64,000 bases of DNA from Agromyces rhizosphaerae (GTDB taxonomy: Bacteria; Actinomycetota; Actinomycetes; Actinomycetales; Microbacteriaceae), in assembly GCF_027925245.1 (NCBI RefSeq), contig NZ_BSDP01000001.1, forward strand, positions 1,302,001 to 1,366,000, read 5' to 3'. Below, piece after piece: positions 13,519 through 35,992 of this stretch (position 1 is its first letter; every line of letters begins with the position of its first letter). Position numbers and translations under genes: made by a program. The notes under the pieces are model-generated. The model did not search any database. It was not told where the DNA came from and was given only the letters and a program-made list of their open reading frames with translations.

Positions 13519-14397
13519 ATGACCGGAATCGGACTCATCGCCGGTGGCGCGAGGCTCGAGAAGCTCGCGTCGGGCTGCGAGTGGGCGGAGGGCCCGCTGT
13601 GGCTGCCCGAGCTGGGACGGGTGCGCTGGAGCGACATCCCGAACAACCGGATCCTCGAGTGGGACGCCGCGACCCGGCGCCTCAGCGTCTTCCGCGACGG
13701 CGCCGAGTACACGAACGGGCGCGCGCTCGACCTCGAGGGCCGCGTCGTGCAGTGCAGCCACGGCCGGCGGGCGATCGAGCGCGAGGGCGCCGACGGTCCC
13801 GAGACGCTCGTGGGGCAGTGGGCCGAGGGGCGGTTCAACTCGCCGAACGACGTCGCCGTGGCATCCGACGGCTCGATCTGGTTCACCGACCCGCCCTACG
13901 GGCTCGACCCGAGCGGGCGCGAGGGGCACCCGGCGCCGCAGGAGTACGACGGATGCTACGTCTTCCGCTTCGACCCGGCGACCGGCGACGTGGAGCCCGT
14001 CGTCACCGATCTCGTGCACCCGAACGGCATCGGCTTCTCGCCCGACGAGGGCGTGCTCTACGTGTCGGACACCGGGTCGCTCGCCGGCCACGAGGCCGAC
14101 ACGCACATCCAGTCCTACCCCACAGACGGCGTGCGGGTGACGGGCCCGGGCGCGCACTTCGCGAAGGTGCCGACCGGCGTCTCCGACGGGTTCGCGATCG
14201 ACGAGGAGGGCCGGCTCTGGACGTCGGCGGGCGACGGCGTGCACGTCTACACGCCCGCCGGGCGGCACCTGCACCACATCCGGGTGCCCGAGGTGGTGTC
14301 GAACGTGACGTTCGGCGGCGCCGACGGGCGCGACCTGTTCATCACCGCGACGACGAGCCTGTACCGCATCGCGACGCTGACGGTCGCCGCACGCTGA
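13519..14397 (+). CDS. SMP-30/gluconolactonase-like sugar lactonase
   Basis: 292-residue six-bladed beta-propeller of the SGL family, which hydrolyses sugar lactones with a bound divalent cation. Metal-site residues are recognisable: Glu in CEWAEGPLW (about 20), Asn in FNSPNDVAVASDG (about 111) and Asp in GVSDGFAIDEEG. A full-length family member with no signal peptide. AAGGGAA precedes the ATG. Its position between an apiosidase-like glycosidase and a sugar dehydrogenase gene suggests that it opens the lactone made by that dehydrogenase, such as apionolactone or rhamnonolactone. The substrate is inference. Its stop is 2 bases from the convergent SDR gene. Confidence 0.85.
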   Translation: MTGIGLIAGGARLEKLASGCEWAEGPLWLPELGRVRWSDIPNNRILEWDAATRRLSVFRDGAEYTNGRALDLEGRVVQCSHGRRAIEREGADGPETLVGQWAEGRFNSPNDVAVASDGSIWFTDPPYGLDPSGREGHPAPQEYDGCYVFRFDPATGDVEPVVTDLVHPNGIGFSPDEGVLYVSDTGSLAGHEADTHIQSYPTDGVRVTGPGAHFAKVPTGVSDGFAIDEEGRLWTSAGDGVHVYTPAGRHLHHIRVPEVVSNVTFGGADGRDLFITATTSLYRIATLTVAAR

Positions 14398-14399
14398 GT

Positions 14400-15269
14400 T
14401 CATGGGGTGGCCTGCTCGGCCCTCCACCTGGCGTACTCGTCGCGCCAGAGGTGCTGCGGCTCGAATCCGAGGCGGTCGCGCGCCTTGTCGATCGACATGA
14501 GCGTCTCGAACTCGCCGAGCTGCTTCACGACCGGCACGTCGGGGTAGTGCCGGGCCGCGAGCTCGGCGGTCGGCACGGTCATGCCCGAGTCGGGTGCGGC
14601 GACGTTGTAGACCTCGAAGCCGGGGGCGGCGTGGCGCAGGGCGAGGGCGACGGCCGCGGCCCCGTCGCGCGAGTCGACGTAGCTGTGCAGCAGGTCCCTG
14701 CGGTACTCGGGGTCGCCGGCGCGCTCGAACGAGCCGTACTCGTCGGGGTCGACCACGTTGGTGAAGCGCAGCGCCGTGATGCTGAGGCCCTCGCGCCAGC
14801 CGACGAGCTGCGCGGAGATCGCCTCCTCGGCGACCTTGCCGAGCGCGTAGGTGTTGTTCGCCTCGGTGTACGTCTCGTCGACGGGGAGCGCGGTGAGGTG
14901 CGCGAAGTCGGGGAAGCCCATGGCGGTGATGCTCGAGGCGGTCACGATCGTGTCGATGCCCGCGCGCACGGCACCGTGCAGCACGTGGAACGTCGCGGTG
15001 ACGTTGTTCGTGAAGGTCGCGGCATCCGGCACCAGGCCGTTGACCGGCAGTGCGGCGAGGTGCACCAGCGCGTCGAGGCCCTCGTGGCGGGCCGTCACGC
15101 CGAGCAGCGCGTCGAGCACCTGCCCGTAATCCTGCAGGTCGACGCGGGTGAACCCGAAGCCGGGAGCGCCGACCAGGTCGAAGCCGATGACGTCGTGCCC
15201 GTCGGCTCGGAGCCGCTCGACGGTCGCCCGTCCGAGCTTGCCGGAACTGCCCGTGACGGCGATGCGCAT
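14400..15269 (-). CDS. NAD(P)-dependent extended SDR, sugar/uronate dehydrogenase-like
   Basis: 289-residue Rossmann enzyme. The nucleotide motif is GSSGKLG at residues 7-13 and the catalytic pair is in TYALGKVAEE (Tyr and Lys of YxxxK). Overall it resembles NAD-dependent epimerase/uronate dehydrogenases, which oxidise C1 of a cyclic sugar to a lactone. Its start lies 127 bases from the rhamnosidase start on the other strand, with one LacI-type palindrome between. A perfect minus-strand TTGACA (15327-15322) is a likely -35. It could oxidise apiose, rhamnose or a uronic acid; the regulatory link favours a sugar released by this island. Confidence 0.82.
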   Translation of the reverse strand: MRIAVTGSSGKLGRATVERLRADGHDVIGFDLVGAPGFGFTRVDLQDYGQVLDALLGVTARHEGLDALVHLAALPVNGLVPDAATFTNNVTATFHVLHGAVRAGIDTIVTASSITAMGFPDFAHLTALPVDETYTEANNTYALGKVAEEAISAQLVGWREGLSITALRFTNVVDPDEYGSFERAGDPEYRRDLLHSYVDSRDGAAAVALALRHAAPGFEVYNVAAPDSGMTVPTAELAARHYPDVPVVKQLGEFETLMSIDKARDRLGFEPQHLWRDEYARWRAEQATP

Positions 15270-15396: not shown

Positions 15397-18075
15397 ATGA
15401 GCATCGTCGTCGCTGCCCCCACGTTCGAGCACCACCGCGAGGCGCTCGGCATCGGAACCCCCGAGCCCCGCCTGTCGTGGAAGACGCAGGCGCCCGCCGG
15501 CTGGACCCAGGCGGCCTACGAGCTGCACGTCGAGCGCGACGGCGCCGACGGCGTACCCGGCACCACCGGCACGACCGGCGCCCCGTCAGCCGACGCGCCC
15601 GGCACCGCCACCTTCGCCGACGCGCCCGGAGCGCCCGCCGGCTGGACCTCCGACCCCGTGGCCACCGACGACCAGGTCCTCGTGCCGTGGCCGGTCGCCC
15701 CGCTCGCCTCGCGCGAGCGCGCCGTCGTGCGCGTGCGCGTCACCGGCGCCGACGGAAGTCGCTCCGAGTGGAGCGAGCCCGGGGTCGTCGAGGCCGGCCT
15801 GCTCGAGGCATCCGACTGGATCGCCTACCCCGTGGGCTCGGCTGCGCAGGAGGACCCGCTCGCCGAGGAGCGCCGCCCGTCGGTGGTGCGCCGCGCGTTC
15901 GCCGCCCGCCCCGGCCTCGTCGCCGCCCGCCTCTACGTCACCGCGCACGGCCTCTACGAGGTCGAGCTGAACGGCCGCCGCGTGGGCACCGACACCATGT
16001 CGCCCGGGTGGACGCCCTACAACGAGCGCCTCCGCTACCTCACCTACGACGTGACCGACCTCGTCACCGCGGGCGAGAACGCCATCGGCTCGTGGCTCGG
16101 CGACGGCTGGTACCGCGGGCGGATCGGCTGGGACACCGGGTTCCGCAACCTCTACGGCCACGACCTGTCGCTGCTCGCGCAGCTCGAGCTGCGCTACGCG
16201 GACGGCAGCACCGAGACCGTCGCGACCGACGACTCCTGGCGCGCCGCGCCCAGCCCGATCGTTCGCACCGGCAACTACGACGGCGAGCTGCACGACGCCC
16301 GCCTCGAGGAGGCCGGCTGGTCGAGCGCCGGATTCGACGACGCCGGCTGGGGACGCGTGGTCGCCGCCCGCCGCGACCCGCGCACGCTCGTCGCGCCCGA
16401 CGGACCGCCCGTGCGCTGCACCGAGGAGGTCGCGCCGGTCGAGGTGCTCACCACCCCGAGCGGCGCCCGCGTGCTCGACTTCGGGCAGAACCTCGTGGGA
16501 CGCATGCGGATCCGCGTGAGCGGGGCATCCGGCGACCGTGTCGTGCTGCGCACCGCCGAGGTGCTGCAGGAGGGCGAGATCTACACCCGCCCGCTGCGGT
16601 CGGCGAAGTCGACCGACGAGTACGTGCTCGCCGGGCGCGAGGGCGAGGAGTGGGAGCCGCGCTTCACGTTCCACGGCTTCCGTTACGCCGAGGTGACGGA
16701 GTGGCCCGGCGACCTCGACGCGGCCGTCGCGAACGGCGACATCGTGGCGCGGGTGTACCACACCGACATGGAGCGCACCGGCTGGTTCGACTCGTCGAAC
16801 GCGCTCGTGAACCGCCTGCACGAGAACGTCGTGTGGAGCATGCGCGGCAACTTCCTCGACATCCCTACCGACTGCCCGCAGCGCGACGAGCGCGTCGGCT
16901 GGACCGGCGACATCCAGGTCTTCGCGCCGACCGCGTCGTTCCTCTACGACGTGTCGGGCATGCTCTCGGGGTGGCTCAAGGACGTCGCGCTCGAACAGCT
17001 GCCCGACGGCACGGTGCCCTGGTACGTGCCGGTCATCCCCGCGCAACGCATGTGGACGCCGATCCAGCCCGGCGCCGCCTGGGGCGATGCGGCCGCGATC
17101 ACGCCGTGGACGCTCTACGAGCGGTTCGACGACCCGGGGATCCTCCGCCGCCAGTACGACAGCGCCCGCCGCTGGGTCGAGCTGCAGGAGCGCCTCGCCG
17201 GCGAGAACCGGCTCTGGGAGGGCGGCTTCCAGCTCGGCGACTGGCTCGACCCCGCCGCTCCCCCGCACGACCCGGCCGACGCCCGCACCGACCGCTACCT
17301 CGTCGCGACCGCGTACTTCGCCCGCTCGGCGGAGCGCGTGGCGCGCATGGCCGAGGTGCTCGGACTCGAGGACGACCGGGCGCGGTTCGACGCGCTGGCC
17401 GCCGAGGTGCGGGCGGCGTTCACGGCCGCGTACGTCGGGTCGGACGGCCGCATGACGAGCGACGCGCAGACCGCGTACTCGCTCGCGATCGCGTTCGACC
17501 TCGTGCCCGACGCCCTGCGCTCGGCCGCCGGCGACCGCCTCGCCGAGCTCGTCGAGGAGGCCGACCACCGCATCGCGACCGGCTTCGTCGGCACGCCCAT
17601 CGTCAGCGACGCGCTCACCGAGACGGGGCATGCGGATGCCGCGTACGACCTCCTCCTGGAGGAGGGCGCGCCGTCGTGGCTGTACGCGGTGCGCCAGGGC
17701 GGCACCACGATCTGGGAGCGCTGGGACAGCCTGCGCCCCGACGGCACCGTGAACCCCGGGTCGATGACGTCGTTCAACCACTACGCGCTCGGCGCCGTGG
17801 CGGACTGGATGCACCGGGTGGTCGCCGGGCTCGCTCCGGCGTCGCCGGGCTACCGCAGCATCCGCTTCGCACCGCAGCCGGGCGGCGGGTTCACGCACGC
17901 CTCGGCCGCGCACGAGACGCCCTACGGGCGCGCGGCCATCGGCTGGCGCATCGAGGGCGGGCGGATGCACGTGCAGGTCGTCGTGCCGACGGGCGCGACT
18001 GCGACCGTGGAGCTGCCCGGCACGGAGCCCGTGGCGGTCGGCAGCGGCACGCACGAGTTCGACGTCGCCGCCTGA
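15397..18075 (+). CDS. Alpha-L-rhamnosidase, GH78
   Basis: 892-residue intracellular glycosidase that releases terminal alpha-L-rhamnose from plant glycosides. Domain order follows the Bac_rhamnosid family: N-terminal beta domains (about 1-340), then the concanavalin-like domain with LDFGQNLVGRMRIRVSG at about 360. The (alpha/alpha)6 barrel follows, with TDCPQRDERVGWTGDIQVFA at about 490-510. In this segment the acidic residues of DER and GD match the known catalytic region. The C-terminal beta domain contains YGRAAIGWRIEGG. WEGGFQLGDWLDP is a further family mark. AGGAGA lies 7 bases before the ATG. Clearly a paralogue of the 937-residue GH78 at 26048-28861. Confidence 0.95.
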   Translation: MSIVVAAPTFEHHREALGIGTPEPRLSWKTQAPAGWTQAAYELHVERDGADGVPGTTGTTGAPSADAPGTATFADAPGAPAGWTSDPVATDDQVLVPWPVAPLASRERAVVRVRVTGADGSRSEWSEPGVVEAGLLEASDWIAYPVGSAAQEDPLAEERRPSVVRRAFAARPGLVAARLYVTAHGLYEVELNGRRVGTDTMSPGWTPYNERLRYLTYDVTDLVTAGENAIGSWLGDGWYRGRIGWDTGFRNLYGHDLSLLAQLELRYADGSTETVATDDSWRAAPSPIVRTGNYDGELHDARLEEAGWSSAGFDDAGWGRVVAARRDPRTLVAPDGPPVRCTEEVAPVEVLTTPSGARVLDFGQNLVGRMRIRVSGASGDRVVLRTAEVLQEGEIYTRPLRSAKSTDEYVLAGREGEEWEPRFTFHGFRYAEVTEWPGDLDAAVANGDIVARVYHTDMERTGWFDSSNALVNRLHENVVWSMRGNFLDIPTDCPQRDERVGWTGDIQVFAPTASFLYDVSGMLSGWLKDVALEQLPDGTVPWYVPVIPAQRMWTPIQPGAAWGDAAAITPWTLYERFDDPGILRRQYDSARRWVELQERLAGENRLWEGGFQLGDWLDPAAPPHDPADARTDRYLVATAYFARSAERVARMAEVLGLEDDRARFDALAAEVRAAFTAAYVGSDGRMTSDAQTAYSLAIAFDLVPDALRSAAGDRLAELVEEADHRIATGFVGTPIVSDALTETGHADAAYDLLLEEGAPSWLYAVRQGGTTIWERWDSLRPDGTVNPGSMTSFNHYALGAVADWMHRVVAGLAPASPGYRSIRFAPQPGGGFTHASAAHETPYGRAAIGWRIEGGRMHVQVVVPTGATATVELPGTEPVAVGSGTHEFDVAA

Positions 18076-18170: not shown

Positions 18171-19052
18171 TCAGCGCTCGATGCGCTCCAGGTGCAGCAT
18201 CCGCGCGAGGTTCTTGTCGAGCTCGTCGTCGCGGAAGACCTTCTTCCAGTCGTCCTTGATGATCGACTCCTTGCCGTAGTCCATCGCGATCAGGCACGCG
18301 TCGCTGAACGGGTTGTCGCCGCGCAGGCCGTTCGCGAGGGCGACCTGGGTGTGGCCGAGCAGGATGCTCCGGGCCGCCGCCTCGGGCACGCCCATGGTGT
18401 TCACGGCCTCGTCGAGCGATTCCTTCAGCAGGGCGCCGATCATGCACGCGATCGTCTCGACGAGGGTCGGCTCGAGCTGCGCGAGCTGCTTGATCGTGAC
18501 CCAGTGCACGTCGACGACGGGCGCGTAGATCGCGCGCACGGTCGCCTCGACGATGGCCTGCTTCGCCGGGTCGTCGGACTCGATCGCCGCGATCGCGTCC
18601 TGCGGGGCCGCGATGCCGCCGAACGTGTCGGCGTACTCCTCGGGCGTGGTGCGCTGCAGGAAGATCGACGGGTGGCACGGGTGCGCGACGGCCTGGATCA
18701 CGTCGTCGCGCGTCGTGAGCAGGCCCGCGTACGCGGCGGCGGGGTCGAGCGTGAGCACGATCGCGCCCGCCTTCATCTGCGGCACGACCTCGGCGGTCAC
18801 CGGGGCGAGCGCGAGGTCGGGCACCGCGAAGACGACGATGTCGGCCTCGCGCACGGCGTCGGACAGGTCGGTGAGCGCGCGGCCCGCGGCCTCGACGCGC
18901 TCGCGTCCGGCCGGGGCGACCTCGACGTAGAAGACCGTGTGGTCGGTCTCGACGAGGTTGTCGGAGACGCGCATCCCCATCTTGCCGCCGGCGCCGAGCA
19001 CGGCGATGGTGTGGGTGTCGGTCTGCGGGGGGTTGTGCACGGTGTCGGTCAT
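18171..19052 (-). CDS. apnO: D-apionate oxidoisomerase-like dehydrogenase (PGDH_C family)
   Basis: 293-residue NAD-dependent enzyme. The N-terminal Rossmann domain carries LGAGGKMGMRVSDNL (about residues 19-33). The C-terminal all-helical part is of the phosphogluconate-dehydrogenase-C type. The sequence AHPCHPSIFLQRT at about 125 and DYGKESIIKDDWKKVF near the end are characteristic. Biochemically known ApnO enzymes of this family convert D-apionate to 3-oxo-isoapionate. The next gene upstream is an OiaC-like TIM barrel, followed by L-erythrulose pathway genes, which is the expected set. The ATG overlaps the stop of that gene. Alternative: a dehydrogenase for another branched or four-carbon sugar acid. 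Confidence 0.68.
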   Translation of the reverse strand: MTDTVHNPPQTDTHTIAVLGAGGKMGMRVSDNLVETDHTVFYVEVAPAGRERVEAAGRALTDLSDAVREADIVVFAVPDLALAPVTAEVVPQMKAGAIVLTLDPAAAYAGLLTTRDDVIQAVAHPCHPSIFLQRTTPEEYADTFGGIAAPQDAIAAIESDDPAKQAIVEATVRAIYAPVVDVHWVTIKQLAQLEPTLVETIACMIGALLKESLDEAVNTMGVPEAAARSILLGHTQVALANGLRGDNPFSDACLIAMDYGKESIIKDDWKKVFRDDELDKNLARMLHLERIER

Positions 19053-19843
19053 GACATGCTCCTCAGGTACTCCAGTGCGGTGGCCGTCCACTCCCGTTCG
19101 GTGCGGACGGTGGTCTCGGGGTCGCCCTGCCAGGGCAGCCAGTGCTCGACGATCTCGTTGATGCCGCGCTCGCGCGGGCGGATCTGCTCGAACAGGTACG
19201 GATACTCGCCCAGGCCCTCGCCCATGGGCGTGCCGGTGTAGGTGAAGCCGACCCAGCCGTCCTGGCGGGCGAAGGCCGAGTCCTTGGCGTGCACGTTGCG
19301 GGTGAGCGCGGCGCACGCGTCGATCGTGTCGCGCGGCAGTTCGAGCGCGGCGACGACGTTGGCCGGGTCGAGGCAGATGCCGAGCCGGTCGCTGCCGACG
19401 CGCTCGACGAGTCCGACGAGCTCGGCGGTCGGCAGCTGCTCGTACGTCTCGAGCGCGAGGGTGACGCCGGCCGCCTCGTAGTCGCGGATGCTGCGCGCGA
19501 GCAGCTCCTCGGCCTCGGCGAGCGTCGGCCGGAAGTCGGGGCCGAACACCATGCTGCGCACGAGGTGCGCGTCGAACGCGTCGGCGAGGCGCAGGAAGCG
19601 CGCGAGGTGGTCGGCCGCGATGCCCTTGGTGCCGAGCTCGATGGTGAGCCCGAGGTCGGATGCCGCGCGGGCCGCGTCGCCGATCTCGGCGTCGGAGAGC
19701 TCGAGCAGCGGCGCGTAGTCGCAGACCTGGAACAGGTCGACGCCCAGCGCCCGGGTCTGCTCGAACGCGCCGATGAGGTCGAGCGGCTCGGGCACCCGGT
19801 CGGAGTGCTGCCAGAAGAAGGCGTAGGTGCCCAGCCCGATCAT
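19049..19843 (-). CDS. oiaC: Xylose-isomerase-like TIM barrel, candidate 3-oxo-isoapionate decarboxylase
   Basis: 264-residue AP_endonuc_2/xylose-isomerase-like barrel starting MIGLGTYAFFWQHSD. Conserved metal-ligand positions appear as Glu in LALETYEQLP (about 150), Asp/His in GICLDPANVV and NVHAKDSAF (about 180-210), and Glu in GEGLGEYPY. OiaC enzymes of this superfamily decarboxylate 3-oxo-isoapionate to L-erythrulose. That product is what the kinase and isomerases encoded just upstream would use. It overlaps both neighbours by 4 bases (ATGA), implying tight coupling. A sugar-isomerase or epimerase role is the main alternative. Confidence 0.62.
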   Translation of the reverse strand: MIGLGTYAFFWQHSDRVPEPLDLIGAFEQTRALGVDLFQVCDYAPLLELSDAEIGDAARAASDLGLTIELGTKGIAADHLARFLRLADAFDAHLVRSMVFGPDFRPTLAEAEELLARSIRDYEAAGVTLALETYEQLPTAELVGLVERVGSDRLGICLDPANVVAALELPRDTIDACAALTRNVHAKDSAFARQDGWVGFTYTGTPMGEGLGEYPYLFEQIRPRERGINEIVEHWLPWQGDPETTVRTEREWTATALEYLRSMS

Positions 19844-20697
19844 CGCCCGCCCTCCCCCGCGTCAGAGCCCGTCGAGTCGTCATGAAGTGTCGGAATCGGC
19901 CCGCCGATAGCGGCACTTCGTGACGACTCACGAAAACGGCGGTCGGCGAGGGCGGCGGCCTCGTCGAGCACGGCGAGGAAGGCGTCGGGGTCGTGGCCGA
20001 ACCGGCCGACGAAGAGGCCGTCGACCGCGCCGTCGAGCGCGGTCAGCAGGCCCGGGCCCGCCGAGCCGCCGTAGATCACGCCGGAGCCGTCGCGCCCCTC
20101 CAGCTCGGCGACCGCGGCGCGCAGGCCGAGCGCGACGTCCGTGATGTGGTCGGCCGGGGCCGGCTCCGGGGCGCCGATGGCCCAGACGGGCTCGTAGGCG
20201 ACGACCACGCGACCGGCGGGGGCGGAGTCGAGCGCGCGGTGGACCTGGCCGACGACCTCGGCGACGGCGTCGGCCGGAGGCATCCGCTCGCCCTCGCCCA
20301 CGCAGAGCACGGGCACGAGCCCGTTCCGCAACGCGGCCCGGGTCTTCGCGGCGACGACCTCCTCGGTCTCGCCGAACAGGCGGCGCCGCTCGGCGTGGCC
20401 GACCTCGACGTGCGTCGCGCCGACCTCGGCGAGCTCCGCGCCGGACACCTCGCCCGTGAACGCGCCGCGGTCCTCGGTGGCGAGGTCCTGCGCGCCGACG
20501 CGCACCGGCGACCCGGCGACCGCGGCGACGGCGGCCGGCACCTGCAGGTACGAGGGGATGACGAAGCACTCGACCCGTCCGTCGGCCACCGCCGGGTGCG
20601 CGGGCACGCGCGCGGCGACCTCGCGCAACCAGTGCAGGCCGTCGGCGTGCCCGAAGTACATCTTCAGGCTGATGCCGATCGAGACGGGTGCGGGCAT
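19840..20697 (-). CDS. lerI: Triosephosphate-isomerase-like protein, candidate L-erythrulose-1-phosphate isomerase
   Basis: 285-residue TIM barrel with all three TPI catalytic residues: Lys12 in ISLKMYFG, His in THVEVGHAERR (about 95) and Glu in VVVAYEPVWAIG (about 165). The phosphate loop is GVIYGGSAGPG. TPI-like enzymes in tetritol pathways (EryH/LerI) interconvert L-erythrulose 1-phosphate and D-erythrulose 4-phosphate. The gene starts at the last base of the RpiB stop (TGATG). Its last 25 codons run through a long palindrome and encode a Ser/Gly/Asp tail that the fold does not need. It is clearly not the housekeeping glycolytic gene, judging by neighbours. Confidence 0.72.
   Translation of the reverse strand: MPAPVSIGISLKMYFGHADGLHWLREVAARVPAHPAVADGRVECFVIPSYLQVPAAVAAVAGSPVRVGAQDLATEDRGAFTGEVSGAELAEVGATHVEVGHAERRRLFGETEEVVAAKTRAALRNGLVPVLCVGEGERMPPADAVAEVVGQVHRALDSAPAGRVVVAYEPVWAIGAPEPAPADHITDVALGLRAAVAELEGRDGSGVIYGGSAGPGLLTALDGAVDGLFVGRFGHDPDAFLAVLDEAAALADRRFRESSRSAAIGGPIPTLHDDSTGSDAGEGGR
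19874..19929. repeat. Two-stage palindrome inside the 3' end of the TPI-like gene
   Basis: The arm GAGTCGTCATGAAGTG (19874-19889) pairs with 19914-19929 apart from one T:G position. Inside it a second hairpin, ATCGGC-CC-GCCGAT, occupies the 24-base loop. The element is read through as coding sequence for the protein tail. Arm sequence GAAGTGTCGGAAT resembles the hairpin at 18107-18161 and the inverted repeat at 52980-53067. Confidence 0.75.
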
Positions 20698-21173
20698 CAG
20701 CAGCTGCCGGTGGTCTCGTACTCGTCGAGCACGGCGACCTTCTCGGCCGACGCCGAGGTCGGGTCGAAGCGGTAGGTGAGCCACTCGCGCACGAGGCGGC
20801 GGGCGAGCTCGATGCCGACGACACGCTGGCCCATCGTGAGCACCTGGGCGTTGTTCGACAGCACGCCCCGCTCGACCGAGAAGCTGTCGTGCGCGGTCAC
20901 GGCGCGGATGCCGGGCACCTTGTTCGCGGAGATCGCGACGCCGAGGCCGGTGCCGCAGATGAGCAGCGCGCGGTCGGCCTCGCCGTCGCGCACGAGCTCG
21001 GCGGCGGTCACGGCGACCTTCGGGTACGGGGTGTGGCCGTCGGCGTCGACCCCCACGTCGACGACGGACGCGACCCCGTCGCTCGCCTCGAGGTCGCGCT
21101 TCAGGATCTCCTTGTAGTCGAATCCGGCGTCGTCGCTGCCGATGACGATGCGGAGCGGTGCGGTGTCGGTCAT
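20697..21173 (-). CDS. eryI: RpiB-type isomerase, candidate D-erythrulose-4-phosphate isomerase
   Basis: 158-residue RpiB/LacAB family protein. The active-site segment [20 protein letters not shown] (about 75-95) contains the catalytic Cys and the anion-hole glycines, and SDDAGFDYK (about 13-21) gives the substrate Asp. RpiB-like EryI enzymes convert D-erythrulose 4-phosphate to D-erythrose 4-phosphate. A generic ribose-5-phosphate isomerase B is the alternative, but the overlap with the kinase gene (ATGA) and the TPI-like gene supports the tetrose role. Confidence 0.72.
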
Positions 21174-22936
21174 GCCGAGGGTCCCTTCGGTGTTGCGGAG
21201 GCGGCGGCGAGCGTCTCGCCGACCGCGGTGACGATGAGGGCGAACGAGTGCGCGCCCGGGTCGGGGGTGCCGAGGCTCTTCTCGGCGTGCGGCCGGGCGC
21301 GTCCCATGCGGGGCAGCAGGTCGGCGGTGGCGGCAGCGGCAGCGGATGCCTCCGAGGCGGCGCTCGCCCAGGCGTCGGCGAGCCGGGAGCCCGCGTCGAC
21401 CTCGCGGCGCAGCGCGTCGGCGAACGGCACGAGCGCGTCGACCATGGTCTTGTCGCCGACCTCGGCCTTGCCGTACGAGCGGATGCCGGTGTCGGCCGCG
21501 GTCACGCCTGCAGCGACAGCGTCGCGCGTCGGCGCGGCCTCGTCGCCCAGGGTGGCGCCGACCTCGCGCAGCGCGAGCCCCCAGAGCGCACCCGAGGTGC
21601 CGCCCGCCCGGTGCGACCAGCCGTCGCCCGCGCGGGCGAGCGTCGTGCCGGCGCCCGCGCCCGCCTCCACGGCCTCGCGGGCCGCGGCCACGGCCGCGTG
21701 CGACCCGCGCTGCATGCCGATGCCGTGGTCGCCGTCGCCGGCGATCGCGTCCATGCGGCCGAGCTCGTCGGCATGGGCGTCGACCGTTTCCGCGACGGTC
21801 TCGAGCGCGGCGAGCACGGTGGCGGCGGCCGCGCGCGAGGCGGGCGTCGCGTCGGGGATCGTCGGGGTGGCGGGGTCAGCCGACTCAGGGGCATCCGTCG
21901 CCGTGTCGAACTCGGCACGCATGACCGAGCCGCGCCGGTACGCGGGGGTGTCGACCGGGGTCTCCCAGAGCTCGGCGAGCTCGTCGTCGAGCCAGAAGAG
22001 CGTGAGCGAGCAGCCGGCCATGTCGAAGCTCGTGCAGTACTCGCCGACGTGCGGGTCGACGACCTCGACGCCGGCGGCCTCGAGCAGCTCGGCGACGCGG
22101 CGGTAGACGACGAAGAGCTCCTCGTACTTCAGCGCCCCGAGTCCGTTCAGGATCGGCACGACGCGCGCGCCGCGTGGGGAGTCCACGCCGTCGGGCAGCT
22201 CGGCATCGGCGAGGAGGTCGCCCACGAGGCGCTCGGCGAGCTCGTCCGCGGTCGGGATGTCGGTCTCGTCGATGCCGGGCTCGCCGTGGATGCCGAGGCC
22301 GACGGCCATGCGCCCCTCGGGCACGGTGAACAGCGGGGCGTCGGCGCCGGGGAGGGTGCAGCCGGTGAACGCGACACCGAAGGAGCGGGTGCGCCCGTTG
22401 GCGAGGCGCGCGACGCGGGCGACATCGGCGAGGTCATGGCCGGCCTCCGCCGCAGCGGCGGCCGCACGGAACACGGTGAGGTCGCCGGCGATGCCGCGGC
22501 GCCGGTGCCGCTCGGCGACCGGGGCGCTCGAGATGTCGTCGGTGACGGTGACGGTCTCGCAGGCGATGCCCTCGGCGCGCAGCTGCTCCTGCGCGGCGTC
22601 GAAGTTCAGCACGTCGCCCGCGTAGTTGCCGTAGCTGAGCAGCACGCCCGCGCCGTGCTGGGCGGCGCGCGCGACCGAGTGCACCTGCTGCGTCGCGGGC
22701 GAGGCGAAGAGGTTGCCCATCGCCGCTCCGTGGGCGAGGCCCTGGCCGACCAGGCCGCCGAACGCCGGGTAGTGGCCCGAACCGCCGCCGACGACGACGG
22801 CCACCTGCCCCTGCGGGGAGCGGGTGCTGCGGACCACCCCGCCGGGGACGCTGCGGACGTACCGCCGGTTGGCCGCCACGAACCCGGCGATCATCTCGTC
22901 GGCGAACGCGTCGGGCTCGTTGAAGAGTCGAGTCAA
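21170..22936 (-). CDS. lerK: DhaK-DhaL fused dihydroxyacetone-type kinase, candidate L-erythrulose 1-kinase
   Basis: 588-residue single-chain kinase. The DhaK domain (about 1-330) has [12 protein letters not shown], the cluster [12 protein letters not shown], and [12 protein letters not shown] near the covalent-histidine region. The DhaL domain (about 375-585) has the metal loop [16 protein letters not shown] and the lid [12 protein letters not shown]-dependent fused kinases of this type phosphorylate dihydroxyacetone, or L-/D-erythrulose in tetritol pathways; the neighbours favour L-erythrulose. The likely start is TTG at 22936 (MTRLFNEPD), 6 bases after AGGAG; an ATG at 22987 lacks such a site and would add a non-homologous leader. 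First gene of the five-gene operon. Confidence 0.75.
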
Positions 22937-23101
22937 CGCTGTCTCCTGTCGGTGCGCGCCCGGGTGTCGTGCGCCGGGCGCAGCCATTCAACCAAACCGG
23001 TTGACCAATTTCAAGCGGGTCGATAGGTTCGGAGCGGCGCAGGGCGGTTCGGAGCCCGTCGCGGCGCGGTAGGTTCGTTGCCCGAGGAGAGGTGGTGGCG
23101 C
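22937..23101. promoter_or_regulatory. Divergent promoter region with AACCGGTT palindrome
   Basis: This 165-bp gap separates the kinase operon (minus) from the GntR regulator (plus). The perfect 8-mer palindrome AACCGGTT is at 22995-23002 inside CCAAACCGGTTGACC, and TCAACC/GGTTGA form an extra inverted pair around it. AACCGGTT also occurs at 28931-28938 before the second rhamnosidase. Either the adjacent GntR protein or the LacI protein could bind; sequence alone does not decide. Confidence 0.5.
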
Positions 23102-23836
23102 ATGCCCGTCTTCCGCGACGACGCGCCTGCGGAGATCACCGCGGCACTGCAGGCACTGCCCGCGCGATCGGCCGTCTCGGTCGTCGCCGAACGCCTGCTC
23201 GAGCTCTTCACGAGCGGATCGATCGCCGCCGGCACCCGCCTGCCCCCGGAGCGCCAGCTCGCCGCCACCCTCGAGGTCGGCCGCTCGGCCGTGCGCGAGG
23301 CGCTCGCGGCGCTCGAGATCCTCGGCATCGTCGACGTGCGGCCCGGCTCGGGCACCTACCTGCGCGGCACCGCGAGCGAGCTGCTGCCCCAGACCCTCAG
23401 CTGGGGCATGCTCATCGGCGAGCAGCGCACCGCCGAGCTGCTCGAGGTGCGCTCGGGCCTCGAGATCTACGTGGCCCGCCTCGCCGCCGAGCGGCTGACC
23501 GACGAGGAGCTCGCACGCCTCGCCGAGCACCTCGATGAGATGGCCGATGCCACCGACGACCTGCACGCGTTCGTCGCCGCGGACCTCGCGTTCCACCAGG
23601 ACCTCGCGCGCGCCGCCGGCAACACCGTGCTGCTCGACCTGCTGCAGATCGTGCGCTCGCTGCTGCGCGTCTGGGTCGACCGTGCGGTGCAGGACCCGGA
23701 CCACGCCGCCATCGCGCTGCGCGAGCACCGGGCCGTGCACGACGCGCTCGCGGCGCGCGACGCCGACCGCGCGGCATCCGCCATGGCCGCCCACATGGCG
23801 ACCGCCTCGGCGCGCCTGCAGTCCGCGACCGCCTGA
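23102..23836 (+). CDS. GntR-family regulator, FadR/FCD type
   Basis: 244-residue regulator. The winged helix (about 15-85) contains RLPPERQLAATLEVGRSAVRE and the wing VRPGSGTYL. The helical FCD domain (about 100-240) has metal-ligand-like Asp and His residues in DLAFHQDLARAAGN, EHRAVHDAL and AAHMATA. FCD members bind small organic or sugar acids. It diverges from the five-gene apionate/erythrulose operon and is the obvious local regulator of it. AGGAGAGG is 9 bases from the ATG at 23102. The effector could be apionate or an intermediate; this is inference. Confidence 0.9.
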   Translation: MPVFRDDAPAEITAALQALPARSAVSVVAERLLELFTSGSIAAGTRLPPERQLAATLEVGRSAVREALAALEILGIVDVRPGSGTYLRGTASELLPQTLSWGMLIGEQRTAELLEVRSGLEIYVARLAAERLTDEELARLAEHLDEMADATDDLHAFVAADLAFHQDLARAAGNTVLLDLLQIVRSLLRVWVDRAVQDPDHAAIALREHRAVHDALAARDADRAASAMAAHMATASARLQSATA

Positions 23837-23860: not shown

Positions 23861-24883
23861 TCAGGAACCGCCGCCGGTCGACTCACGCACCACGAGTTCG
23901 GGCCGGAACACGACATGCTGGCGCTCGGGCGCGGCGCCGGACGCGGCATCGGACGTCTCGCGCATGAGCAGGTCGACCGCGGTGTAGCCCATCAGCACGG
24001 CGGGCTGGCGGATGGAGCTCAGCGGCACGACCGCCGCCTGCGCGAAGTCGATGTCGTCGTAGCCGATCAGCGCTACGTCGTCGGGCACCGCGAGGCCGCC
24101 CATCATCACGAGCGCCTGCAGCACGCCCGTCGCGAGCAGGTCGTTGGCGGCGAACACCGCGTCGGGCCGGTCGGCGGCAGCGCGCTCGCGCAGCGCCTCG
24201 CCCGCCCGGCGCCCCTCCAGCACGGAGAGCGAGGTCGTCGCGACGACCTCGAGCGAGGCATCCGGCACCTGCGCGATCGCCTTGCGCGCGCCCTCGAGGC
24301 GATCCGCGACCTGGCGGATGCCCTGCGGGCCGCCCACGAACGCGATGCGCCGGCGCCCGATCGACAGCAGGTGCTCGACGGCGAGCGCACCGCCCTCGAC
24401 GTCGTCGACGGCGACGGACGACAGCGACTCCTCGGGCGACTCGCGGTCCACCAGCACGACGGGCGTGCCGCGCTCGGCGAGCCGTGCGAAGCGCGTGAGG
24501 TCCTCGTCGAGCGGCGACACGACGAGGCCGTGCACCCGCTGCTCCTCGAACGAGTCGAGGTAGCTCGTCTCGCGCGCGAGCTTCTCGTCGGAGTTGCCGA
24601 GCAGCACGTTCATGCCGTCCTCGGACGCGCGGTCCTCGGCGCCGCGGGCGATGTCGGTGAAGAACGGATTGCGCACGTCGAGCACGACGAGGCCGATGCT
24701 GCGGCTGCGGCCGGCGCGCAGCTGGCGGGCCGCGTCGTTGCGCACGAACCCGAGGTCCTGGATCGCGGCGAGCACGCGCTCGACGGTCGCCGGCGCGACC
24801 TTGTCGGGCCGGTTGAGCACGTTCGAGACGGTGCCGACCGACACGGATGCCGCGAGGGCCACGTCGCGCACGCTCACCGCCAT
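23861..24883 (-). CDS. LacI-family repressor
   Basis: 340-residue regulator. The helix-turn-helix and hinge occupy residues 1-60 (VRDVALAASVSVGTVSNVLN, then the hinge around ARQLRAGRS). The periplasmic-binding-like effector domain follows, with GLVVLDVRNPFFTDIARGAE, VVLVDRE and PDAVFAANDLLATGVLQAL. LacI proteins bind near-palindromes centred on CG. Several TGAAnCGnTTCA-like sites occur in this island, and this is its only LacI gene, so it is the likely repressor of the rhamnoside genes, released by rhamnose or a rhamnoside. An alternative GTG start is at 24877. Convergent with GntR 24 bases away. Confidence 0.93.
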   Translation of the reverse strand: MAVSVRDVALAASVSVGTVSNVLNRPDKVAPATVERVLAAIQDLGFVRNDAARQLRAGRSRSIGLVVLDVRNPFFTDIARGAEDRASEDGMNVLLGNSDEKLARETSYLDSFEEQRVHGLVVSPLDEDLTRFARLAERGTPVVLVDRESPEESLSSVAVDDVEGGALAVEHLLSIGRRRIAFVGGPQGIRQVADRLEGARKAIAQVPDASLEVVATTSLSVLEGRRAGEALRERAAADRPDAVFAANDLLATGVLQALVMMGGLAVPDDVALIGYDDIDFAQAAVVPLSSIRQPAVLMGYTAVDLLMRETSDAASGAAPERQHVVFRPELVVRESTGGGS

Positions 24884-24944
24884 GGCGTCCGCCCTCCGTC
24901 CGGCCCCGTCGACCTGTCGGCGAGTGTAGGGCATGGGAGCGCGA

Positions 24945-26051
24945 TCATCGCGGCGCCTCCCCGTCGCCGACGAACGCGACGGCCTCGGCGAGCATCGCGG
25001 GCGTGAGCGCATGCCCCGAGTCGTGGAAGCTGCCGCGGTAGTCGGCACCGGATGCCTCGAGCCGCGCGTGCGCGTCGCGCATGCCCGCCTCGGGGAACAG
25101 GTCGTCGTGCAGCCCGTACTGCACGAGCCGCCGTGGGCGTAGCGGCGCGGCGAGCAGTTCGTGCAGCTCGGCGTGGCGCGGGAGTCCGGGACTGTTGACG
25201 AGCCAGGAGTGGGCCTCGACGTGGTCGGGCACGAGGGCGCGCCACGTCGTCATCATGCAGGCGACGACGACGGCGTCGAACCCGCCGTCGAGCGCGGCCA
25301 GGTACGCCGCCCGCGCCCCGCCACCGGAGTAGCCGAACAGCGAGAGGCGGTCGGCGTCGACCATGGGCAGCGCGCGCACCGCATCGAGCGCGACGAGGTC
25401 GTCGTGCGCCACGAGGCCCGCGAACGACGTGCCGAGCAGGGAGGCGGCACGGGCGAGGCTGGGTTCGAGCACGGATGTCTCGCGGTCGCCTGCCGCGGGC
25501 TCGTCGAGCCGTATGCCGTTCGCGGCATCCGTCGCCTCGAGCGCCGCGAGGAGCGGTGCCGTCGCGGTGCCCGGCCGCAGGCGGACGCGACGGGAGCCCC
25601 ACCCGAAGGTGTCGAAGGCGATCGCCGCGAACCCGGCCTGCGCGAACGCGTTGCCGACGCCGAGCCCCGAGTAGAGGCGCTCGCGCGCCCCCCGGACGCG
25701 GCCGTCGTCGCCCGGGACGTCGATCATCGGCCGGCCGCCGACGTGCGTGACCCCGCCATGCGCGTGCAGCAGCACGACCGTCGGGAACGGCCCCTCGCCC
25801 TCCGGCGCGACCCACCACGCCTCGGTCGGCGCGCCGTACCCCGCGTCCCACTCGAGCGCGCCGCCGCGCAGCCCGTCGGTGCGCCAGCCGCCGGTGTCGC
25901 GTGCGCTCGTCGGCCCGTGCGCGGGCACGCCGAGCACCTCGGCGAGCGCCGCCGCCCCCTCGTCGCCCGGCCGGTGGAGCGGCCGGTCGTCGAGGTAGTC
26001 GGCCAGCGCGGCGAGTCCGATGCCACCGCGCCGCAGCGCGGTGTCGGTCAC
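24945..26051 (-). CDS. Alpha/beta hydrolase, acetyl-xylan-esterase/Abhydrolase_7-like
   Basis: 368-residue cytosolic esterase-like protein. Nucleophile elbow GYSGGGARA (about 245), acid region GLHDDLFPEAG (about 320), histidine in FHDSGHALTP (about 345), and an HAHGGV oxyanion segment at about 100. The insertion between strand and nucleophile is long, as in Abhydrolase_7 esterases. It begins with GTG inside the stop of the GH78 gene (GTGA), so both are made together. That suggests removal of acetyl or feruloyl groups from rhamnosides before or after hydrolysis; the bond is not known. Confidence 0.82.
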   Translation of the reverse strand: MTDTALRRGGIGLAALADYLDDRPLHRPGDEGAAALAEVLGVPAHGPTSARDTGGWRTDGLRGGALEWDAGYGAPTEAWWVAPEGEGPFPTVVLLHAHGGVTHVGGRPMIDVPGDDGRVRGARERLYSGLGVGNAFAQAGFAAIAFDTFGWGSRRVRLRPGTATAPLLAALEATDAANGIRLDEPAAGDRETSVLEPSLARAASLLGTSFAGLVAHDDLVALDAVRALPMVDADRLSLFGYSGGGARAAYLAALDGGFDAVVVACMMTTWRALVPDHVEAHSWLVNSPGLPRHAELHELLAAPLRPRRLVQYGLHDDLFPEAGMRDAHARLEASGADYRGSFHDSGHALTPAMLAEAVAFVGDGEAPR

Positions 26052-28861
26052 CCGGCCAGCCCCCTTTCGCGATTCAGTTCGCCCAGCGCCGCCGCGACCG
26101 CGTCGAACTGGACGGCGGTGGTGCGCATGCGGATCGCCTCGCCGAGGTCGCGGCCGGGAACCCAGGCGATGCTGCGCAGCATCGGCGCCGAGCTGCCGGG
26201 CTCTCCGCCGTCGAGCGCGCCGGCGAGCGCCGCATACGCCTCCGGGTCGTCGACGATGTCCGCGAGCGGGCTCTCGAGCGAGACCACCCCCGGCGACGGG
26301 GGGCTCGCCGGCGCCGGCACCCGCCACGCGTGCACGCCCGAGCCGATCTCGACCTCGTCGTGTGCACCCGGGAGGTGCACGGTCGCCGTCGTGTTCGGCG
26401 GCACGGTCGCCTCGATCGCGACGTCGTCGCCCTCGCGGCGCCACGCCACCCTGGCAGTGCCGTACGGCGTGAGATGCTCGGCCGACGCGTGGTCGAAGCC
26501 CTCGAGCGGCGTGGGCGCGATGCGCAGCGCGCGGTAGCCGTCGGCGGCGGGCGCGAGACCGGCGAGCACGCGGTGCATCCAGTCGGCGATCGCGCCGAGC
26601 GCGTAGTGGTTGAACGAGGTCATCTCGCCGGGGTTGATCGACCCGTCGGGCAGCATCGAGTCCCAGCGCTCCCAGATCGTGGTCGCGCCCATGGTGACCG
26701 GGTACAGCCACGAGGGGTTGCCGGTCGCGGTGAGCAGCCGACGTGCGGTGTCGACGTGCCCGGTGCTGCTGAGGGCGTCGGCGATGATCGGCGTGCCCAC
26801 GAAGCCCGTGCCGATGAGGTACCCGCCGCGGCGGGAGAGCTCGGCCAGGCGAGCCCCCAGCGCGTCGCGCTGCGCGTCGTGGGCGATGCCGAACTCGATG
26901 GCCACGGCGTAGCCGGTCTGCGCGTCGGACACCATGCGGCCCGACGGCGTCACGTACTCGGCGAGGAACGCCTCGCGCACCTCCTCGCGCAGCCGGCCGA
27001 ACCGCTCGGCATCGGCCGCATGCCCGAGGCGCTCCGCCGCGCGCGCGACGAGGTCGACCGACCGGAACAGGTAGGCGCTCGCGACGATGTCGGTGTCGGT
27101 CTTCGCCTTGAACGGGTTCTCGGGCGGGGCATCCGGGTCGAGCCAGTCGCCGAACTGGAACCTGCCCTCCCACAGCCGCCGGTCGCCCGCGATCGCGAGG
27201 ATCGCCTCGGTCCACGCGACCATGCTCGGGTACTGGCGCGCGAGCACCTCCTCGTCGCCGAAGCGCTCGGCCAGCACCCACGGCACGACGGTCGCCGCGT
27301 CGCCCCACGCCGCGGCGGGGGTCGGGTCGGCGTCGAGCACGTTCGGCACCACGAAGGGCACGACGCCGTCGACCTGCTCGATGGCGAGGTCGACGAGCCA
27401 CGAGTCGAGGAACCCGCGCACGTCGTAGAGGAAGCTCGCGGTGGGCGCGAAGACCTCGATATCGCCGGTCCAGCCCAGGCGCTCGTCGCGCTGCGGGCAG
27501 TCGGTCGGCAGGTACAGGAAGTTGCCGCGCAGGCCCCAGACGACGTTCTCGTGCAGCTGCCGCACGAGGTCGTGCGAGGTGTCGAACCACCCGGTGCGCT
27601 CCATGTCGCTGTGGATCACGACCGCGGTGACGTCGGCCGGGTCGAACTCGCCCGGCCAGCCGGAGACCTCGGCGTAGCGGAAGCCGTGGAAGGTGAACTC
27701 GGGCTCCCAGGTCTCCTCGCCGGCACCCGCCAGCGTGTAGTGGTCGGTGGCCTCGGCCGCGCGGAGCGGCCGCACGCCGAGCTCGCCGTGCTCGAGCACC
27801 TCGGCGTGGCGCAGCATCACCGTGTCGCCCGCCGCGCCGCGCACCGTGATGCGCAGGCGGCCGACCAGGTTCTGGCCGAAGTCGAGCACGGTCGCGCCCG
27901 AGGGCGTCGTGATCACCTCGGCGACGGGGAGTTCCTCGATGCGGCGGACGAAGGGCGAGGTGCGCGCCTCGGGTACGACCAGCTCGGGGCCGGGCGCGGC
28001 AGGCGTCCACGCCGACGCGTCGAACCCGGGCTCCGACCAGCCCGGCAGCTCGCGTCGGGCGTCGTGCGACTCCCCCGCGTAGATGCCGCTCGCGGTCACG
28101 GGCGACGGATGCGACGACCAGGCGCCCGGCCCGGTGCGCACGCGCAGCTCGCTGCCGTCGTCGTACTCGACCACCAGGAGGGCCGCGAACGCGGGCTGCT
28201 CGCCGTAGACGCGGCGGGCGTGGTCGCGGAACCCGTACTCCTCGGTCGCCCAGGCGCCGGCGAGCCGCACGCCGATGGCGTTGGCACCGTCGCGCAGCAG
28301 CCCCGTGACATCCGTCGTCTCGTGGATGAGCCGCTCGCGGTACGGCGTCCAGCCGGGCTTCAGCACCTGCTCGTCGACGTCGGTGCCGTTGATCGCGACC
28401 TGGTACGCACCGAGCGCGGTGGCGTAGAGGGTGGCGGCTGCCACGCCGGCGTCGAGTGCGAACTCGGTGCGCAGCAGCACCGGCTGCGCGGGGCCGTCGG
28501 GGGCCGCGTGGGCGATGGGCGCGGCATCCCACTCCCCGTCGGCGAGGAAGCCGGCTCGGATGCCGCGGGGCTCGCTCCAGGGTGAGGTCGCCCCGTCGGC
28601 ACCCGTGGTGCGCACCCGCAGCTCCACGTGCTCGCGAGGTGCCAGCGGCGCGAACGGCCAGGGCACGTCGACCGAGTCCCGGCCGGCGACCGACGACGTC
28701 TCGACGTCGTCGCCCCGGCGGAGCTCGAGTTCGGCCGCGGACTGGAGCCAGCCGGGGGCGTCCGTCTCGGTCGCCCAGGAGAGGCGGGGCCGGGCGGACG
28801 CGACGATGTCGCTGCCGCGCGGGGCCCCTGCGTCGACGCGTACGGTACGGGGGTCGCTCAT
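26048..28861 (-). CDS. Alpha-L-rhamnosidase, GH78
   Basis: 937-residue intracellular GH78 enzyme, paralogous to the 892-residue one. It has LDFGQNLVGRLRITVRG at about 375, the barrel segment TDCPQRDERLGWTGDIEVFA at about 500 with conserved acids, WEGRFQFGDWLDP at about 620, and the C-terminal YGTARVAWRREGD. An extra 75 residues after the beta domain (from about 860) have no counterpart in its paralogue. AAGGA precedes the ATG. No signal peptide, so the rhamnoside must be imported. Two different GH78 enzymes may serve different linkages, such as alpha-1,2 and alpha-1,6. Confidence 0.95.
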   Translation of the reverse strand: MSDPRTVRVDAGAPRGSDIVASARPRLSWATETDAPGWLQSAAELELRRGDDVETSSVAGRDSVDVPWPFAPLAPREHVELRVRTTGADGATSPWSEPRGIRAGFLADGEWDAAPIAHAAPDGPAQPVLLRTEFALDAGVAAATLYATALGAYQVAINGTDVDEQVLKPGWTPYRERLIHETTDVTGLLRDGANAIGVRLAGAWATEEYGFRDHARRVYGEQPAFAALLVVEYDDGSELRVRTGPGAWSSHPSPVTASGIYAGESHDARRELPGWSEPGFDASAWTPAAPGPELVVPEARTSPFVRRIEELPVAEVITTPSGATVLDFGQNLVGRLRITVRGAAGDTVMLRHAEVLEHGELGVRPLRAAEATDHYTLAGAGEETWEPEFTFHGFRYAEVSGWPGEFDPADVTAVVIHSDMERTGWFDTSHDLVRQLHENVVWGLRGNFLYLPTDCPQRDERLGWTGDIEVFAPTASFLYDVRGFLDSWLVDLAIEQVDGVVPFVVPNVLDADPTPAAAWGDAATVVPWVLAERFGDEEVLARQYPSMVAWTEAILAIAGDRRLWEGRFQFGDWLDPDAPPENPFKAKTDTDIVASAYLFRSVDLVARAAERLGHAADAERFGRLREEVREAFLAEYVTPSGRMVSDAQTGYAVAIEFGIAHDAQRDALGARLAELSRRGGYLIGTGFVGTPIIADALSSTGHVDTARRLLTATGNPSWLYPVTMGATTIWERWDSMLPDGSINPGEMTSFNHYALGAIADWMHRVLAGLAPAADGYRALRIAPTPLEGFDHASAEHLTPYGTARVAWRREGDDVAIEATVPPNTTATVHLPGAHDEVEIGSGVHAWRVPAPASPPSPGVVSLESPLADIVDDPEAYAALAGALDGGEPGSSAPMLRSIAWVPGRDLGEAIRMRTTAVQFDAVAAALGELNRERGLAG

Positions 28862-28902: not shown

Positions 28903-28938
28903 AATCGTGAATCGATTCACGATTTCTGTCAACCGGTT
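28903..28938 (-). promoter_or_regulatory. Promoter of second rhamnosidase operon with 22-bp perfect palindrome
   Basis: Reading the minus strand, TTGACA (28932-28927) and CACGAT (28909-28904) are 17 bp apart, a good vegetative promoter. A perfect 22-bp palindrome (28903-28924, core GTGAATCGATTCAC) covers the spacer and -10. AACCGGTT (28931-28938) abuts the -35. The position is ideal for repression. The CG-centred symmetry fits LacI-type recognition. Confidence 0.72.
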
Positions 28939-29018
28939 CGCCCGATACCGTGCGACCGGCGCGGCGAGTTGTCCACTGAAACGAATCAATGCGTTGCACG
29001 ATCGTTACCGAGAATCAT

Positions 29019-29065
29019 TTGACGAGCGGGGACAACAGGCCTACAGTTCCAACTGAACCGTTTCA
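29019..29065 (+). promoter_or_regulatory. Promoter and operator of the sugar ABC importer
   Basis: TTGACG (29019-29024) and TACAGT (29042-29047) are 17 bp apart. Immediately downstream lies TGAACCGTTTCA (29054-29065), matching a LacI-type palindrome in 5 of 6 pairs. A weaker relative, TGAAACGAATCA, is at 28977-28988. A repressor at 29054 would block promoter clearance. The ribosome site AAGGAGGT follows at 29112. Confidence 0.68.
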
Positions 29066-33232: not shown

Positions 33233-33274
33233 TTGCGGTCGACACGCCGGGCGCGGTATCGTTGAAACGATTCA
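33233..33274 (+). promoter_or_regulatory. Promoter and LacI-type operator of the rhamnose catabolic operon
   Basis: TTGCGG (33233-33238) and TATCGT (33257-33262) are 18 bp apart. Directly downstream is TGAAACGATTCA (33263-33274), with 5 of 6 palindromic pairs. The architecture (operator just after the -10) is the same as at 29019-29065. This operator should control rhaM and probably the whole operon to 40415. Confidence 0.68.
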
Positions 33275-33689: not shown

Positions 33690-33718
33690 GCCGGCACCGA
33701 CACAGAAAGCGACGACCA

Positions 33719-34885: not shown

Positions 34886-34906
34886 CATGACGCTCGCCGC
34901 CCGCGC

Positions 34907-34956
34907 CGGTGCGCGAACCGTGGTCTCCCGGGGGGACGGCCACGGTTCGGGCACCG
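34907..34956 (+). terminator. Hairpin after rhaI
   Basis: CGAACCGTGG (34914-34923) pairs with CCACGGTTCG (34940-34949). After one mismatched base on each side, CGGTGC (34907-34912) pairs with GCACCG (34951-34956). The 16-base loop is G/C-rich. It may partly terminate or protect the rhaM-rhaI message before the next genes. Confidence 0.7.
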
Positions 34957-35050
34957 TCGGCGTGCGCGGCGAGCGACGCAATCTTCCCGCGGCGCGTTGC
35001 GTGGTGGTGGCGCGCCGCGGGATCCTCTTCACGTACTTCCGGGGGGAACG

Positions 35051-35983: not shown

Positions 35984-35992
35984 GGAGCCACC

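Follow-up and report, generated by a model that had tools for sequence, protein, structure and literature searches.

A candidate five-gene operon for D-apionate catabolism in Agromyces rhizosphaerae

Which substrate is degraded by five overlapping minus-strand genes of the actinobacterium Agromyces rhizosphaerae (Microbacteriaceae), and is it reached from D-apiose, the branched sugar at which borate cross-links rhamnogalacturonan II and which many plant glycosides contain? The genes lie in a stretch of 64,000 nucleotides (the window: assembly GCF_027925245.1, contig NZ_BSDP01000001.1, positions 1,302,001 to 1,366,000 of the forward strand), which belongs to a single-contig 3.6-Mb genome. In order of transcription they encode a kinase, an RpiB-like isomerase, a TPI-like isomerase, a barrel protein and a PGDH_C protein (Table 1), with successive overlaps of 4, 1, 4 and 4 bases. 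The Pfam domains of all five proteins exceed their cut-offs. A preliminary description of this DNA had given the same families and order with exact coordinates, and the string HPCHPSIF that it located in the PGDH_C protein is indeed present, as residues 124-131.

Synteny, linkage to the lactonase-like gene ApnL and a shared promoter motif together make it most likely that the operon takes D-apionate to D-erythrose 4-phosphate. On these sequence comparisons, the probability that the five genes are transcribed together for this catabolism is put at about 85%. The NAD-dependent ApnO would convert D-apionate into 3-oxo-isoapionate by a ketol-acid-type rearrangement, and the metal-dependent barrel enzyme OiaC would decarboxylate this product to L-erythrulose. 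The DhaK-DhaL kinase LerK would then form L-erythrulose 1-phosphate, the TPI-like LerI would turn it into D-erythrulose 4-phosphate, and the RpiB-like EryI/DerI would yield D-erythrose 4-phosphate, an intermediate of the pentose phosphate pathway. Repression of the operon, until an apionate-type ligand appears, is probably exerted by the divergent FCD regulator at a GTCAACCGGTT site. We infer every one of these reactions, as well as the motif owner and the ligand. With seemingly every step from D-apionate to central metabolism in one operon, the system is small enough to serve for tests and could be transplanted as a module.

The gene order was compared across 80 loci, kept from 87 relatives found in a genome-collection scan with the barrel protein. 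Gene content was scored by tblastn, and loci truncated by a contig end were scored as misses. Since all five genes are kept in the window's order in 62 of the 80 loci, the operon is more than a chance arrangement. ApnO and OiaC were found in all 80, LerI in 71, EryI in 67 and LerK in 66. Beyond Microbacteriaceae, the set includes Jiangella, Glycomyces, Phytohabitans, Streptomyces, Accumulibacter (L064) and Propionivibrio (L068 and L075). The last three loci have ApnO, OiaC and FCD genes, and no match to LerK, LerI or EryI was found within the stretches examined.

A sample of 299 genomes of the window's family was also searched, with thresholds of E ≤ 1e-60 for ApnO and E ≤ 1e-15 for ApnL; these searches score first-look candidates only. 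ApnO was found in 61 of the 299 genomes, with OiaC no more than 5 kb away in 59 of the 61. The barrel protein's nearest named relative is in Agromyces mangrovi (95%), and an uncultured Agromyces (L002) has a layout nearly identical to that of the window. Within the genus the operon is patchy, because none of the five other Agromyces genomes sampled gave an ApnO match at 1e-60.

Two loci are unusual in themselves. L019, from a record titled Planococcus sp. APC 4015, has a Microbacterium-like operon with a 70% identical barrel and conserved synteny, and its organism label looks wrong. In L103 (genome G110), the kinase, RpiB-like and TPI-like genes are present twice, on the flanks of ApnO and OiaC, and one of the two sets is 49-75% identical to the window's.

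Neighbour clustering of the relatives revealed a conserved ApnL-like gene soon after ApnO, which is absent from the window. Its product had no match in the Pfam scan; for the homologues listed, the protein database gives the domains PF25837 and PF25838. The Joint Genome Institute (JGI) name D-apionolactonase stands on 2 of 120 ApnL homologues among the matches listed, the others being hypothetical or unnamed. The gene is present in 56 of the 80 loci, within 2.5 kb of ApnO in 53, and in 49 loci an SDR dehydrogenase (60% identity or more) is found within 1.5 kb. In the family sample, ApnL was found in 48 of 61 genomes with ApnO versus 2 of 238 without it (Fisher p 7e-41, not corrected for relatedness), and at no more than 15 kb from ApnO in 34 of the 61. 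ApnO is thus linked to both ApnL and OiaC across the genomes of the family.

The preliminary description had also announced a divergent FCD regulator, and a GntR/FCD gene was found at that place. A homologue was matched in 72 of the 80 loci, a few of them just 30-41% identical. In 68 loci the best FCD match sits on the minus strand, and in their regulator-side promoters the 14-mer GGTCAACCGGTTTG occurs with up to two mismatches in 62, of which 41 are exact. The misses are L026, L039, L046, L056, L068 and L079; L039 and L068 have just a 34% FCD match, and L026, L046 and L056 have the 11-mer GTCAACCGGTT without mismatch at a later point, in front of LerK, MFS or OiaC. The 1.53 Mb of the loci contain exact GTCAACCGGTT at 100 positions, where base composition predicts 0.44, a perfect palindrome being counted twice; as the loci are operon-centred, such counts show placement and not genome-wide number. 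Of these positions, 76 are in the gap that separates FCD from the gene next to it on the other side, and 17 more precede MFS, LerK, OiaC, ApnL, SDR or FCD. The remainder comprises two before a binding-protein gene, one before a rhamnosidase, one inside an FCD match and three near nothing labelled. In L025, L027 and L074, the motif precedes an ApnL or SDR gene standing apart from the operon.

Since FCD is the motif's constant neighbour, the motif was assigned to this regulator, which is probably its owner; a LacI-type protein may be the owner instead. The window's only other exact GTCAACCGGTT lies between the rhamnosidase and the ABC-transporter binding-protein genes, beside LacI-type sites. 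These are palindromes of the form TGAATCGATTCA (up to two mismatches), at 28908-28919, 28977-28988, 29054-29065 and 33263-33274, four found against 0.49 expected, and are placed before the binding-protein gene and the L-rhamnose mutarotase gene. Their position suggests that the LacI protein encoded at 23861-24892 controls a rhamnose regulon.

The proteins themselves were then compared with known families. The ApnO-like protein combines the NAD-binding domain PF03446 (27.9 bits, cut-off 21) with PGDH_C, and is the sole PF16896 match in its genome. Its nearest solved chains are 5t57 and 3c24. HPCHPS, with H124 and H127, is near-invariant across 79 sequences, as are E194 and H234. Among NCBIfam models, its N-terminal domain gave weak ketol-acid reductoisomerase matches alongside prephenate dehydrogenase ones; the former fit the proposed carbon shift and are no proof of it. 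The JGI name D-apionate oxidoisomerase is carried by 7 of 120 ApnO homologues among the matches listed.

In the OiaC-like protein, E132, D159, H185 and E233 are near-invariant across 80 sequences, and presumably correspond to the four metal ligands of the xylose-isomerase-like superfamily. The protein thus has the PF01261 barrel with a conserved, putative four-residue metal site, and decarboxylation is its predicted reaction. Its AlphaFold2 model has a predicted local distance difference test score (pLDDT) of 89.2, with residues 196-199 below 50, and the nearest solved folds are D-tagatose 3-epimerase and D-psicose 3-epimerase. By sequence, the best match to solved structures reached only E 0.017. 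The JGI name 3-oxoisoapionate decarboxylase was found on 3 of 120 OiaC homologues among the matches listed.

The genome encodes one further Dak1, TPI and RpiB-family protein each, which leaves the operon copies free for a special task. The LerK-like kinase is a fused DhaK-DhaL, 39% identical to and distinct from the genome's other DhaK-family kinase, and its predicted substrate is L-erythrulose. The TPI-like protein keeps K12, H101 and E169, and has GHAERR and AIGAPEPA where the other TPI has GHSERR and AIGSGQ. Solved chain 3s6d, which we take to be fungal, has the same GHAERR and a similar loop, AIGKPQPA (PxPA).

Several observations weigh against the D-apionate assignment. The solved L-erythrulose-1-phosphate isomerase 11ef scores 120 bits with the TPI-like protein by sequence, versus 141 for 3s6d and 138 for 9quu, and 163 versus 205 and 171 by profile, so that chains called TPI score as well or better; the comparison has limited weight, because 3s6d shares the altered motifs and is called TPI only putatively. 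The RpiB-like protein matches TIGR02133, the actinobacterial ribose-5-phosphate isomerase, with 206 bits (cut-off 168), and at 152.5 bits it fails the cut-off of 240 of NF051858, the rhizobial D-erythrulose-4-phosphate isomerase. LerI-like and EryI-like are to be taken as proposals on how the two isomerases work, with no family membership claimed. In NCBIfam, none of ApnO, OiaC and LerK matched a model specific to it. The remaining listed ApnO homologues are called ketopantoate reductase or hypothetical, or have a general name or none, most listed OiaC homologues are likewise otherwise named or nameless, and the JGI names are taken as automatic and may reflect similarity alone. Lastly, ApnL was not found at E ≤ 1e-15 in 13 of the 61 genomes with ApnO, namely the window's genome and 12 of the 60 others. 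In the window strain, the ApnL query from L006 gave no match in the genome even at E ≤ 0.001, and the same query matches 50 of the 299 family genomes.

The last result divides what the preliminary description had proposed. Its D-apionate to D-erythrose 4-phosphate operon is upheld by synteny, ApnL linkage, the shared motif and some JGI names; use of D-apiose by this strain is not, the genome being without ApnL. ApnL-lacking strains raise the question of whether apionate alone is eaten or other entry enzymes are used. Operon stretches from 10 of the 12 other ApnL-lacking genomes (not G035 and G155) were matched against the set of queries used in this analysis. In six of the 10 (L100-L103, L106 and L107), the five genes are accompanied by MFS, and the stretch lacks both ApnL and an SDR of the 60% type, which suggests that apionate is used as such. 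L101 has a 38% SDR nearby, and L106 has ABC-transporter genes. G058 (L098 and L099) resembles the window, with the five genes, a rhamnosidase, epimerase-like and apiosidase-like genes, and SMP-30 further on. L097, L104 and L105 are partial or differing stretches.

The strain may accordingly import D-apionate or its lactone instead of making it from D-apiose, the nearby glycosidases serving other sugars such as L-rhamnose. We regard this as plausible, if on the less probable side. It is a sub-question compatible with the assignment of the operon to D-apionate, and both can hold. Besides the missing ApnL and the six genomes just described, it is favoured by the SDRs of the window strain's genome, which are at most 39% identical to the linked SDR and include no close relative, and by the LacI-type palindromes before the binding-protein and L-rhamnose mutarotase genes. 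Against it, no close relative of the linked MFS was found in this genome either, the one match being partial at 27%; the second motif copy stands between rhamnosidase and transporter genes, and the apiosidase-like gene is about 5 kb from the operon. That the linked MFS and SDR genes are encoded elsewhere in the genome was considered and rejected on the low identities just given. Among the 8 SDR loci examined of 34 matched, no exact motif was seen, and a one-mismatch copy in L083 is far from the gene start.

A second reading is that the operon degrades another aldonate, branched or linear, whose breakdown likewise leads to a tetrulose, ApnO and OiaC having shifted substrates. This is unlikely. 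ApnO is just 39-40% identical to its proteobacterial relatives in L064, L068 and L075, ApnL is missing from the 13 genomes noted above, and to our knowledge no activity has been measured in the window's ApnO subfamily. Nevertheless, most of the 80 loci have ApnL and SDR beside this ApnO subfamily, and within the family ApnL hardly occurs in genomes without ApnO. In addition, OiaC shares invariant residues, the four putative metal ligands among them, between L064, L068 and L075 and the window.

That the kinase and isomerases serve erythritol or threitol use, with ApnO and OiaC as unrelated passengers, is very hard to credit: the same kinds of enzymes act in tetritol catabolism, as far as the available parts of PMC10733421 and PMC5992420 go, but the five overlapping genes stay together in 62 of 80 loci and no more than 5 kb separates ApnO from OiaC in 59 of 61 genomes.

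With D-apionate as the assigned substrate, the operon is best understood as the compact form that a pathway known from other bacteria takes in actinobacteria. What is new is the motif of the regulon and the finding that entry genes can be exchanged. A D-apiose/D-apionate pathway with ApnO and OiaC was reportedly described by Carter et al. in 2018. As in that pathway, ApnO- and OiaC-type proteins are in one unit here, with ApnL adjacent in most of the 80 loci; the overlapping operon shared with the kinase and both isomerases may be a difference, and ApnL is absent from the window strain's genome. LerK, LerI and EryI/DerI are said to act in tetritol catabolism in Mycolicibacterium smegmatis. That route has the same DhaK-DhaL kinase and TPI-like and RpiB-like isomerases, whereas L-erythrulose would here derive from 3-oxo-isoapionate and not from a tetritol.

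Carter et al. 2018 is cited in the accessible part of PMC6302742. A LerK-LerI-DerI route to erythrose 4-phosphate, with enzymes from tetritol catabolism, works in E. coli according to the available text of PMC10733421. The Rhodobacteraceae strain LCG007 grows on D-apiose, and its cluster has annotated D-apionolactonase, D-apiose dehydrogenase and D-apionate oxidoisomerase, but a 3-oxoisoapionate kinase and a 4-phosphate decarboxylase in place of OiaC with LerK, LerI and EryI (PMC11747546, as far as its accessible part goes). The erythritol cluster of Yarrowia lipolytica also groups kinase, TPI-family and RpiB-family genes; it is eukaryotic, serves erythritol, and ApnO or OiaC are not described in the available part of PMC5992420. 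The preliminary description took this arrangement as new to the group. The operon proved common in the family; no paper on an actinobacterial version was found among the matches listed for open PubMed Central papers, as judged by titles and abstract starts, which is weak evidence of absence.

Table 1. Positions of the operon, its regulatory elements and neighbouring genes in the window
Feature	Position	Strand	Remarks
DhaK-DhaL kinase (LerK-like, fused)	21170-22936	-	TTG start behind GGAG-type site; Dak1 373 and Dak2 156 bits
RpiB-like isomerase (EryI/DerI-like; proposed D-erythrulose-4-phosphate isomerase)	20697-21173	-	LacAB_rpiB PF02502, 150 bits
TPI-like isomerase (LerI-like, putative L-erythrulose-1-phosphate isomerase)	19840-20697	-	TIM PF00121, 176 bits
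OiaC-like putative 3-oxo-isoapionate decarboxylase, xylose-isomerase-like barrel	19049-19843	-	AP_endonuc_2 PF01261, 66.8 bits
ApnO-like putative D-apionate oxidoisomerase	18171-19052	-	PGDH_C PF16896, 192 bits
GntR/FCD regulator, divergent	23102-23836	+	PF00392 and PF07729
Conserved motif TTGGTCAACCGGTTTG, candidate operator in divergent promoter region	22993-23008	-	
Second motif copy	28925-28940	+	11-mer GTCAACCGGTT exact (28928); 3 mismatches over 16
Apiosidase-like glycoside hydrolase	11892-13400	-	PF13204, DUF5060, DUF5605; presumed member of the locus
alpha-L-rhamnosidase	about 15424-18075	+	
alpha-L-rhamnosidase	about 26048-28861	-	
SMP-30/gluconolactonase-like protein	13519-14397	+	PF08450; weak lactonase candidate
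Epimerase-family NAD protein	14400-15269	-	PF01370; weak sugar 1-dehydrogenase candidate

The neighbouring genes were examined for possible steps from D-apiose. The glycosidase near the operon had been called apiosidase-like in the preliminary description; its Pfam domain was confirmed (PF13204, 64 bits, cut-off 26.5), and its identity as an apiosidase was not, the evidence being at the level of the domain. Among solved structures it matches only 4n0r, which is itself a glycoside hydrolase by putative annotation. Homologues occur in 27 of the 80 loci, 17 of them at 60% identity or more. The epimerase-like protein has homologues in 20 of the 80, which adjoin a rhamnosidase homologue in 14 of the 20.

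SMP-30 was also considered as a plain replacement of ApnL, a displacement hinted at by L002, L072 and L078, the three of the first 80 loci with an SMP-30 homologue, all of them without ApnL. The larger sample disagreed. Homologues are present in 30 of 48 ApnL-bearing versus 5 of 13 ApnL-lacking genomes with ApnO (Fisher p 0.21), and are no more than 20 kb from ApnO in 5 of 48 versus 3 of 13 (p 0.35). Since the displacement was not borne out, SMP-30 is retained merely as a weak candidate. The exact motif was found within 450 bases upstream of 5 of 41 SMP-30 genes (L108-L111 and L127). In the SMP-30 tree, the window's protein falls outside the clade that contains L108-L111, and L127 is elsewhere. 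Upstream of the window's own SMP-30 gene there is no motif, the best site having 3 mismatches.

From these elements a wider model can be put forward only tentatively, and we consider it doubtful in its entirety. It would be a widespread actinobacterial apionate regulon with one operator, GTCAACCGGTT, a constant core of five genes and entry parts that can be exchanged: MFS for apionate, SDR and ApnL for apiose, or a recruited SMP-30-family lactonase. In the window strain, the epimerase-like protein and SMP-30 would replace SDR and ApnL, for apiose from rhamnose-bearing plant glycosides. The shared motif offers a route, by mapping the regulon, to the missing transporter, dehydrogenase and lactonase genes.

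Some further genes were seen around the loci. In the window, L-rhamnose catabolic genes occupy 33300-38029 and comprise a rhaM mutarotase, an AP_endonuc_2 barrel just below its cut-off, which we take to be a rhamnose isomerase, an alpha/beta hydrolase and a fused aldolase-dehydrogenase. The genome of L104 has ApnO and OiaC without linked LerK, LerI or EryI, and a membrane protein after ApnO (L104:11196-12674) resembles, by eye, a GntP-type sugar-acid permease. A 560-residue protein with no Pfam match (TIM560; L044:3660-5342) is encoded between a binding-protein gene and an MFS or kinase gene, and is present in 7 of the 80 loci within the motif-bearing stretch. Finally, an FAD protein like D-arabinono-1,4-lactone oxidase (Pfam ALO; L032:3265-4512) adjoins the FCD gene in 13 of the 80 loci.

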